From: an uncultured Clostridia bacterium
GTDB lineage: Bacteria; Bacillota; Clostridia; Christensenellales; Borkfalkiaceae
Length of the DNA: 64,000 nt
Assembly: GCA_944368925.1 (NCBI GenBank)
Contig: CALVXG010000001.1
Location: 1-64,000, forward strand
Direction: 5' to 3'
The notes under the pieces are model-generated. The model had not been told where the DNA came from. It searched no databases and saw only the letters and a list, made by a program, of their open reading frames with translations. The position numbers were made by a program, and so were the translations under genes. Positions 46,084 through 52,372 of this stretch are shown in pieces (within the stretch, counting starts at the first letter, position 1; every line of letters begins with the position of its first letter).

Positions 46084-46782
46084 TTAAGTGTAATCGCTTC
46101 GGTCCATGTTCGCCCTCACCTTCTCGATCGCCCGCTTCTCGATCCTCGATATGTATGACCTGGATATCTTCAAAAAGACCGCCACCTCCCTTTGCGGCAT
46201 GGGCGCGCCGCCCTTTAAACCGTATCTTAAACACAACACAGTATATTCCCGCTCCGTAAGCGACTGCTTTAAAACCCGCATAAACTTCTCTTTCACCAGC
46301 TTGTTTTCCACCGTCTTGAATACGCCCTCTTCTTTCTCAAACAGAAGATCCATCAGCGTAAGCTCGTTTCCCTCTTTGTCCACCCCGACAGGGTCGGATA
46401 AATAGACGTTCCCTTTATGCTTTTTGTTGCTGCGGATCAGCATCAGTATCTCGTTTTCGATGCACCGCGCCGTATACGTTGCAAGCTGCGTACCCTTGCC
46501 GTCCTTGTAGGTATCGATCGCCTTGATCAGCCCGATGCTCCCCACCGAGATCAGATCGTCCGTCTCCGCCGCCCCGTTGTACTTCTTTACGATATGCGCC
46601 ACCAAACGCATATTGTATCTGACCAGAATGTCCTTCGCCGCTTTGTCCCCCTCCCTCGCAAGTTTTAAATACTTCGCCTCTTCTTCCGCCGAAAGCGGCT
46701 TCGGAAAAGAACTCTTCCCCCCGATCGCCCCCGTAAAAAACAACAGCTTCCCGATGATCGCACACAAAAAATCAAACAACAT
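46084..46782 (-). CDS. sigK: Sporulation sigma factor sigma-K
   Basis: Late mother-cell sigma factor, 232 residues in one uninterrupted gene (no skin element). The hydrophobic N-terminal pro-sequence (MLFDFLCAIIGKLLFF, then FPKPLS) matches pro-sigma-K and would need processing. Region 2 has RLVAHIVKKY and DLISVGSIGLIKAI, region 4 has SRSYISRIEKRA. GGAGGGG precedes the ATG. The gene is the clearest sign of a sporulating ancestry. Confidence 0.95.
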   Translation of the reverse strand: MLFDFLCAIIGKLLFFTGAIGGKSSFPKPLSAEEEAKYLKLAREGDKAAKDILVRYNMRLVAHIVKKYNGAAETDDLISVGSIGLIKAIDTYKDGKGTQLATYTARCIENEILMLIRSNKKHKGNVYLSDPVGVDKEGNELTLMDLLFEKEEGVFKTVENKLVKEKFMRVLKQSLTEREYTVLCLRYGLKGGAPMPQREVAVFLKISRSYISRIEKRAIEKVRANMDRSDYT

Positions 46783-51060: not shown

Positions 51061-51110
51061 TAAGGGCCAAAGAGACGGGAGCGTTTTGCTTCCGTCTCTT
51101 TGGCCCTTGT
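51061..51110. terminator. Terminator of the spo0A operon
   Basis: A perfect 17-bp stem (51062-51078 with 51092-51108) with a 13-nt loop between the epimerase start and the small spo0A-linked gene. Confidence 0.75.
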
Positions 51111-51164: not shown

Positions 51165-51482
51165 CTATGTCTTTTCACAGTCTGCCCGACGAGATTTGCC
51201 CCGCCCCGACGACTGTTCTTTTAAAATCGGCGGCAGGTTCACCCGCACTCCATGCCGTCCGAACTTATCCAGGATCTCCCCCAGCAAGGCATATACCTCC
51301 TGCGAACGATCTGCCCGCTCCTTGACGTTCGGTTTGCACACGGGCAGCAACACCGCCGCTTCCAGCAGGCAGTCAATCTTTCGCAGCAAAGCCTTTTTCC
51401 CCCGCAAAGATTCCCGCATACACCTGCGCACATATCCCGCGTCCCCCTCCGCAAGATATCCCTTATAGGAACGAGCTTTCAT
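51165..51482 (-). CDS. Small basic protein encoded directly downstream of spo0A, unknown
   Basis: A 105-residue protein, rich in R, K and L, predicted mostly helical. The ATG has a strong AAAGGAGAGG that overlaps the spo0A stop, so the two genes are translationally coupled. No motif is recognised. It is not SpoIIB, SpoIVB or any standard spo0A neighbour I know. A helical bundle around CLLEAAVLLPVCK and NLPPILKE may form a partner interface. Confidence 0.6.
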   Translation of the reverse strand: MKARSYKGYLAEGDAGYVRRCMRESLRGKKALLRKIDCLLEAAVLLPVCKPNVKERADRSQEVYALLGEILDKFGRHGVRVNLPPILKEQSSGRGKSRRADCEKT

Positions 51483-51493
51483 CCGCCTCTCCT

Positions 51494-52252
51494 TTACCGA
51501 TAATTCGCGATCCCTTCGAGAATCAGCTTGTCCGCCACCAACGCGATAAATTCGCTGTTCGTCGGCTTTTCCGACCCGATGTATACGCGCACTCCGAATA
51601 CCGCGTTGATCGCTTCGATCCGCTGTCTGTTCCATGCCACTTCGATTCCGTGACGGATCGCACGCTCTACTTTGCTCGCCGTCGTGTTGAACTTTTCCGC
51701 TATCTGCGGGTACAGCTCCTTCGTCACGTTGTTGATGATCCCCGGGCGCTCCACCGCCAGCTTGATCCCTTCCCGCAAATATCCGTATCCCTTGATGTGC
51801 GGAGGGATCCCGATCGCAATGAAAATGTTGCTGATCTTCTCGTCCAGTGTCACCGCATTCTTTTTCTCCTTCGCCGCAGCGACAACCTTGTCTCCTTCCG
51901 AAACTTCCTTGACCCTCTCCGCTACAACTTCCGCCGCGATCGGCTTCATCAGATAAAACTTCGCACCCGCCGCAAGCACCTTTTCGATGATCTCGTCGTC
52001 CGAATATCCTCCCGTCACGATCAGTCTGACTGCGGAATTTTCGCGGTGCAGCCGCTCCAGCACGCCGAATCCGTCCAGCCCCTTCAAGACCAGTCCCACT
52101 ACCGCAACGTCCGGTTTTTCCGTCTCAATCATCCGCAGCCCTTCTTCCCCGTCGTTCGTAACCCCCGCAACATCCAATCCCGTCATTCTGACCGCTACCG
52201 CGATCTCTTGCGCCGTTTCGGCGTTTCCTTCCATGATTACAACTTTTTTCAT
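51494..52252 (-). CDS. spo0A: Spo0A-like response regulator with a degenerate receiver domain
   Basis: Master sporulation regulator homologue, 252 residues. The C-terminal DNA-binding domain is highly conserved (IGIPPHIKGYGYLREGI, FNTTASKVERAIRHGIEVAW, KPTNSEFIALVADKL). In the receiver domain the phosphoacceptor position is Gly: KPDVAVVGLVLKGLDG where others have KPDVLLLDIIMPHLDG. The acidic pair near residue 10 is also altered (IMEGN instead of VADDN). The switch Thr (IVTG) and Lys (LMKPI) remain. Canonical phosphorelay control is therefore unlikely. GGGAGG precedes the ATG. Confidence 0.93.
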   Translation of the reverse strand: MKKVVIMEGNAETAQEIAVAVRMTGLDVAGVTNDGEEGLRMIETEKPDVAVVGLVLKGLDGFGVLERLHRENSAVRLIVTGGYSDDEIIEKVLAAGAKFYLMKPIAAEVVAERVKEVSEGDKVVAAAKEKKNAVTLDEKISNIFIAIGIPPHIKGYGYLREGIKLAVERPGIINNVTKELYPQIAEKFNTTASKVERAIRHGIEVAWNRQRIEAINAVFGVRVYIGSEKPTNSEFIALVADKLILEGIANYR

Positions 52253-52286: not shown

Positions 52287-52315
52287 ATTATACAACATAT
52301 TTCGCCGTTTGTTAA
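52287..52315 (-). promoter_or_regulatory. Promoter of spo0A
   Basis: TTAACA (52310-52315), a 17-nt spacer and TATAAT (52287-52292), minus strand. The spacer contains GGCGAAA, close to a 0A-box core. Confidence 0.75.
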
Positions 52316-52365: not shown

Positions 52366-52372
52366 TGTCGAA
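52366..52372 (+). promoter_or_regulatory. 0A-box upstream of spo0A
   Basis: TGTCGAA, a perfect match to the Spo0A box TGNCGAA, lies about 50 nt upstream of the spo0A -35 box in an AT-rich leader. It suggests autoregulation. A 7-mer alone is weak evidence; position supports it. Confidence 0.5.

Follow-up and report, generated by a model that had tools for sequence, protein, structure and literature searches.

A Spo0A orthologue without the phosphoacceptor aspartate and the spread of this loss in the Clostridia family Borkfalkiaceae

A spo0A gene whose product lacks the phosphoacceptor aspartate was identified in a 64,000-nucleotide stretch of DNA from an uncultured Clostridia bacterium (the window), and most Spo0A genes of the same family were found to share the loss. 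The receiver would keep its fold but not the residues for Asp phosphotransfer, which would make it a pseudo-receiver. On balance, such a Spo0A probably works without phosphorylation, its activity most likely being set mainly by its own abundance. In bacilli and clostridia, the phosphorylation of Spo0A is the switch launching sporulation (PMC3533761).

The gene was read from the list of open reading frames and its translation as a 252-residue protein with an ATG start at position 52252. Pfam placed Response_reg at residues 4–114 and Spo0A_C at residues 140–243, which gives the receiver plus Spo0A_C architecture. TIGR02875, the NCBIfam equivalog model of Spo0A, scored 231.9 bits (cut-off 200), and any pipeline with that model would hence call the gene Spo0A. 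By this score and its place in a quick tree of Spo0A proteins, the gene is, as judged from sequence, a Spo0A orthologue. Its features are as follows.

51494..52252, minus strand: spo0A, 252 aa, pseudo-receiver form (Pfam Response_reg and Spo0A_C; TIGR02875)
51893..52252, minus strand: receiver domain, residues 1–120, degenerate (Pfam, alignment, dN/dS against locus L072)
52226..52231, minus strand: Glu8-Gly9 at the acidic-pair position (translation, multiple alignment)
52094..52096, minus strand: codon GGA, Gly53 at the phosphoacceptor Asp position (translation, alignments)
52010..52012, minus strand: Gly81 at the switch Thr/Ser position (translation, multiple alignment, 1dz3)
51944..51946, minus strand: Lys103, conserved receiver Lys (multiple alignment, 1dz3; K in 139 and R in 12 of 151 family rows)
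51524..51835, minus strand: Spo0A_C DNA-binding domain, conserved (Pfam; near 1fc3 and 1lq1)

The labels D10, D11, D56, T84 and K106 are taken here to be residue numbers of B. subtilis Spo0A. In the window protein, the phosphoacceptor Asp is replaced by Gly53, encoded by GGA (52096–52094, minus strand) within DVAVVGLVLKGLDG, and the acidic pair by Glu-Gly at residues 8–9, both as the initial annotation of this DNA had read them. It had also rightly taken the receiver Lys (Lys103) as conserved, and the structural alignments agreed with its view of the DNA-binding domain, which is 54% identical to 1fc3 and 59% to 1lq1 and near both by sequence and fold. Its claim of a conserved switch Thr proved wrong. 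Against 1dz3, the solved Spo0A receiver, Thr80 aligns with Leu, and it is Gly81 that occupies the place of the switch Thr. In the multiple alignment, the Gly81 column holds S in 50, T in 9 and N in 1 of 60 non-family sequences, nine genes of genus g36 that lack the Asp having been excluded. This correction strengthens the case for receiver loss, as the lesion read from the alignments is larger than first noted. Four residues after the Asp, Lys57 likewise takes the place of a Pro. Among the five canonical receiver residues (E8, G9, G53, G81 and K103 in the window protein), only Lys103 and the acidic Glu8 are left. The full set of a phosphorylation-activated response regulator (Asp, acidic pair, switch Thr/Ser and Lys) is not there, and the protein falls among the pseudo-receivers, or aspartate-less receivers, that is, those with a receiver fold and key phosphotransfer residues missing. 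With Gly at position 53, Asp phosphotransfer there is chemically impossible.

The closest comparison was provided by L072, an independent assembly encoding a protein 91% identical to the window Spo0A with Gly at the same position. The two receivers differ by dN 0.073 and dS 1.33, and the dN/dS of about 0.06 demonstrates, at the codon level, purifying selection on this domain. Some receiver positions, for example 16, 69 and 85, are more conserved within the family than outside.

The window's genome belongs to a Borkfalkia-like gut bacterium, and its family is taken to be Borkfalkiaceae of the order Christensenellales (GTDB). Both PMC11536998 and PMC12536801 place Borkfalkiaceae in or near Christensenellales. 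A Spo0A_C match was present in 114 of the 121 family genomes, and one full-length gene was read from each of 71 of these 114, the window's included. The alignment of related genomes proposed in the initial annotation revealed that the loss is common to relatives, Asp being absent in 55 of the 71 genes; the position holds Gly in 21, Ser in 19, Asp in 16, Glu in 9, Asn in 5 and Ala in 1. The genus of the window's genome lacks the Asp in all 13 genomes read (10 Gly, 3 Ser). All five receiver residues are kept in 1/71 family genes versus 52/69 elsewhere in the order, and both acids occur in only one (L060) of the 16 Asp-keepers. A set of 80 named loci, which overlaps the first and includes Candidatus Borkfalkia, Gallimonas and Coproplasma, contributed 81 genes, 79 of them without the Asp. 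Because L072 and 21 of the 71 family genes (window's included) have Gly, the loss in the window is not a sequencing error, one of the two objections that the initial annotation had foreseen. The other, a second intact Spo0A in the same genome, found no backing either: the assembly (2.70 Mb, 44 contigs, 93.74% complete) holds a single Spo0A_C match.

In the quick tree, the family Spo0As form one clade among those of the order (SH-aLRT 100). Five or six changes are required to explain the Asp label on this tree, and starred branches force three of them. Independent branches gave only 3 to 5 pairs for a comparison of the Asp state with the switch residue, too few for power. Phosphorylation of a Ser at the Asp position was also considered, as Ser occurs there in 81 of 151 family rows; it is ruled out for the window Spo0A, in which this residue is Gly.

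Further Spo0A_C copies were searched for at 20 places in 20 family genomes; 19 gave a match and L363 (G108) none over the threshold. Five were stand-alone Spo0A-type DNA-binding domains without a receiver in frames of 124–139 aa (L359, L360, L361, L364 and L366), six were divergent, low-scoring Spo0A_C proteins (L350 to L355), and L348 was an Asp-less extra copy. L349 (G047) bears the Asp and closely resembles the main gene of its genome, and the three divergent proteins L356, L357 and L358 have a receiver with Asp; such divergent Asp-bearing extra proteins belong to genomes G032, G007 and G104. Of the 13 genomes of the window's genus, 12 contain just one Spo0A_C match, and the extra copy of G010 (L347, 177 aa) is mostly missing its receiver. 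L362 and L365 turned out to be the best Spo0A_C matches of their genomes. L362 (G081) contains an in-frame stop between the receiver and the DNA-binding domain and may be a pseudogene, a split gene or an assembly error.

For the rest of the order, one Spo0A was taken from each of 69 of the 199 other genomes with a match: the 30 best-scoring, 19 from the lower end of the matches listed and 20 covering more families and one odd genus. The Asp is present in 60 of these 69 genes, including all 30 best-scoring ones, and the 39 further genes added nine with Glu. All nine belong to one genus, g36 of family f19, at the following loci.

L314, L322, L327, L328, L329, L330, L332, L333, L335: genus g36 Spo0A loci, Glu at the Asp position

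Glu stands at the phosphoacceptor position in 9/9 genes read, from a genus with 11 genomes among those with a match; both acids are gone, and Ser and Lys are kept. The other f19 genera read (G282, G293 and G313) keep the Asp, so the change to Glu in g36 is apparently an independent loss, possibly a phosphomimetic one. A non-canonical acidic pair (Glu-Arg) with the Asp kept was seen in L320 (G304, family f24).

The DNA upstream of spo0A was searched for regulatory motifs, TGTCGAA being taken as the 0A box consensus. The following sites were found.

52366..52372, plus strand: putative 0A box TGTCGAA upstream of spo0A (TTCGACA in the gene's direction; motif search)
52287..52315, minus strand: sigma-70/sigma-A-type promoter-like site TTAACA-17-TATAAT (11/12 matches, consensus match only)

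The putative 0A box lies 114–120 bases upstream of the spo0A start. In 128 distinct family spo0A upstreams, 91 exact 0A boxes were found in 82 sequences, the first rank among 630 motif permutations, which averaged 2.4. One orientation between -160 and -90 was found in 64 of 123 family upstreams (200 permuted motifs: mean 0.4, highest 38), and with one mismatch allowed the count rose to 98/123 against a permuted average of 7.4 and a highest of 101. These counts establish a predicted 0A box fixed in place upstream of spo0A in about half of the family. A box within 200 bases of spo0A accompanies 66 of 107 Asp-less genes and 12 of 16 Asp-keepers, and 10 of 15 relatives outside the family also have one upstream of spo0A. 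In the window, the conserved DNA-binding domain goes together with a 0A box upstream of its own coding sequence, and binding to this box is predicted. Promoter-like sites numbered 2 in the searched region, with 1.0 expected.

Exact 0A boxes at the sporulation operons were sparse. One precedes spoIIE in the window's genome, and none was found upstream of spoIIAA or spoIIGA there. The family counts were 5/30 for spoIIE within 450 bases (window's genome included; 1/10 outside the family), 5/18 for spoIIAA, sharing one orientation and lying between -110 and -71 (0/3 outside), and 1/11 for spoIIGA (0/1 outside). Several permuted motifs match or beat the 0A box at these three genes, and the putative boxes are suggestive at most. 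As proof of a kept regulon, the boxes at spoIIE, spoIIA and spoIIG were set aside as too few.

A sporulation sigma gene was located on the same contig as spo0A.

46084..46782, minus strand: sigK, sporulation sigma factor (TIGR02846 300.5 bits, cut-off 298.65)

Elsewhere in the window's genome, sigma E and SpoIIAB score above their cut-offs, sigma G does so with one of two models, and two SpoVA matches pass. Sigma F and a sigma-H-like protein are the best matches but stay below the cut-offs of their own models, as do SpoIIE (266.1 bits, below the curated cut-off) and SpoIVA (L210, C5:184745-186133; 274.5 bits, model positions 145–492), in the frame of which a Walker-A-like GAGGTGKS remains in the N-terminal part. 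The window Spo0A hence co-occurs with a sporulation sigma cascade in which several scores lie below curated cut-offs. Elsewhere in the order, SpoIIE is also below the cut-off in 19/22 genomes and sigma F in 18/18. Across the family, the sigma F model at E 1e-50, which also catches sigma G, had matches in 49/49 genomes (two in 43 and one in 6; order 18/18), SpoIIE in 57/58 (missing in G034, 79% complete; rest of the order 22/22), SpoVA in 56/56 (15/16) and SpoIVA in 56/58 (missing in G093 and G037; 22/22). By these profile matches, the family has kept its core sporulation genes. One SpoIVA match (G114) contains a stop. In the sub-clade of the window's genome, eight genomes match only the C-terminal part of the SpoIVA model and the ninth (G093) has no match; a partial match was likewise seen in G073 and G116, two genomes of another genus. 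Family genomes measure 1.1 to 2.7 Mb. Published gene-content predictions disagree: SpoMAG (PMC12536801) predicts Borkfalkiaceae to be non-sporulating, and PMC11536998 counts Borkfalkiaceae MAGs as potentially sporulating via the presence of spo0A, the criterion that it puts first when judging sporulation potential from metagenomes. The window's lineage, known here from metagenome assemblies, may form endospores, the published predictions being in conflict.

The window's genome encodes 5 receivers and 11 HATPase_c (PF02518) matches. Four of these matches are sensor kinases, each with one of the four receivers other than Spo0A close by (contigs C2, C4, C7 and C11), and the remaining HATPase_c matches are two GyrB-like proteins, a MutL-like and an HSP90-like protein, SpoIIAB and two small proteins; SpoIIAB was named by profile score and the GyrB-, MutL- and HSP90-like names came from reading the translations. 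The HATPase_c and receiver searches found neither an orphan kinase nor a free-standing Spo0F-like single-domain receiver in this genome. Unpaired HisKA kinases, with no listed receiver within 3.5 kb among the 150 of 172 receiver matches listed, made up 2 of the 32 HisKA kinases of ten family genomes without the Asp, 0 of 11 in three that keep it and 2 of 40 in seven genomes outside the family. As they are rare in all three groups (20 genomes), the scarcity is not special to Asp-less members, and the idea that kinase loss tracks Asp loss was not supported. Among the matches listed, kinase-receiver fusions in the same open frame were seen by eye in the Asp-keeping G007 and G064 and in G265 and G211 from outside, and none in the ten Asp-less genomes, numbers too few for a claim. 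In G007 (L307:2969-8016), which keeps the Asp, two ORFs precede spo0A, one for a 661-aa hybrid histidine kinase and one for a 510-aa receiver-HD-GYP-like protein, both named from their translations; the kinase ORF is a possible retained phospho-input.

Downstream of spo0A, the window contains the following.

51165..51482, minus strand: 105-aa ORF downstream of spo0A (no Pfam match at E 0.001; narrow distribution)
51063..51107, strand not assigned: 20-bp inverted repeat, terminator-like, downstream of the 105-aa ORF (repeat search, listed on the plus strand only)

The 105-aa ORF was found in 5 of 181 loci (L001, which is the window's own, L018, L072, L075 and L077). The Asp, by contrast, is lost across the family, and the 105-aa protein was rejected as a general Spo0A partner. 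No widely conserved downstream neighbour was detected, the largest cluster of same-strand ORFs having 16 members among 128 loci.

The window Spo0A shares the domain order, equivalog score, DNA-binding domain and upstream 0A box with the Spo0A of B. subtilis and clostridia (TIGR02875), but is without the Asp, the second acid, the switch Thr and the Pro after the Asp. Engineered Spo0A mutants that are independent of phosphorylation (Sad67 type) exist as laboratory constructs; the Asp-less Spo0A described here is natural, occurs in many genera and presumably also acts without phosphorylation. Clostridial Spo0A is phosphorylated directly by sensor kinases (PMC3533761, PMC6136694), and here likewise no Spo0F-like receiver was found, but the acceptor is missing and there is no orphan kinase among the PF02518 matches. 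Aspartate-less receivers such as ChxR, CmrT, BldM/WhiI and RitR (PMC4395418, PMC12632262) similarly carry a receiver fold without phosphotransfer residues on a DNA-binding domain, and the options considered for them are constitutive activity, expression-level control and partner control; the difference is that here a developmental master regulator appears to have become a pseudo-receiver, family-wide. In the main texts searched, PMC4395418 mentions Spo0A twice, once for Asp-to-Glu substitutions and once in its reference list, PMC12632262 does not mention it, and neither describes a natural Asp-less Spo0A. No report of one was found in the available parts of the open-licence literature, including PMC11536998, PMC4395418, PMC12632262, PMC6136694, PMC3533761, PMC12536801 and PMC11115286, and the same literature yielded no activity, binding or sporulation data for Borkfalkiaceae.

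The initial annotation had offered constitutive activity, control by another signal or partner (the 105-residue protein being its candidate), or sporulation rewired or lost. That the family at large lost the receiver chemistry but kept sporulation genes speaks for rewiring or for an action independent of phosphorylation; the candidate partner did not stand, and outright loss of sporulation was not borne out, as the sigma factors are present. The conserved receiver, the conserved DNA-binding domain and the 0A box at spo0A point to control by concentration and feedback or by a partner. Abundance is weighted above a partner because no linked partner is conserved and because PMC12632262 discusses expression-level control for constitutively active pseudo-receivers in other systems. 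Under abundance control, Spo0A would still bind 0A boxes and still take part in sporulation control without phosphorylation. A promoter of vegetative type, with feedback through the 0A box ahead of the gene, would set its level, the receiver would stay fixed in a state that is either competent for dimers or not inhibiting, and input would come from transcription or turnover, not from a sensor kinase. A small molecule or protein partner that binds in the phosphate's place and switches the pseudo-receiver, as proposed for others, would fit the selection on the receiver, its family-specific conserved positions and the partner- and modification-based control reviewed in PMC12632262; with the 105-aa neighbour so rare and the largest downstream cluster so small, we consider such a switch quite improbable.

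Sporulation could instead be in the course of being lost, with Spo0A kept as a vegetative regulator (an autoregulator or growth-phase repressor), the other sporulation genes as relics and the receiver decayed since sporulation kinases no longer matter. The SpoMAG call, the missing or C-terminal-only SpoIVA in the nine genomes of the sub-clade and the partial ones in G073 and G116, the small genomes and the sparse exact boxes at spoIIA/E/G agree with such a course. The open frames of sigma F/G, SpoIIE, SpoVA and SpoIVA in nearly all of the divergent family genomes searched are unlike neutral decay (the G114 stop apart), SpoIVA of the window's genome retains its Walker-A-like motif and PMC11536998 lists family MAGs as potential sporulators, so that this course is judged unlikely. 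The Asp-keeping relatives may, alternatively, be an intermediate with weak phosphorylation and the window's species a terminal loss of an inefficient receiver, which is compatible with the other readings. It is in line with the 16 Asp-keepers of which one has both acids, with the kinase ORF upstream of spo0A in G007 and with the statement in PMC12632262 that phosphotransfer can survive substitutions at DD, T or K; it is silent on how the Asp-less majority works, the co-change of Asp and switch residue on the tree has no power, and we regard it as possible, if rather unlikely. An artefact (a wrong base call, a contig binned into the wrong genome, or a second, intact spo0A in what the 93.7% complete assembly leaves out) might be suspected from the Asp-bearing extra proteins of G047, G032, G007 and G104, but is scarcely credible in view of the loss in 55/71 family genomes, with Gly in 21, and of a genus with Asp-less main genes throughout and one extra copy mostly without a receiver.

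Taken more broadly, it is slightly less than an even prospect that a gut Clostridia family starts its endospore programme with an unphosphorylatable Spo0A under abundance or partner control, and that a genus of another family did so independently via Asp to Glu. Counts of spo0A genes do not reveal whether the classical phospho-switch is present, and many natural sequences are now available on how a receiver behaves once freed from phosphorylation. With the cascade kept and the phosphorylation site gone, a start of sporulation without phosphotransfer becomes directly testable: the family may start spores another way, or its ability to form them may be in the process of being lost.
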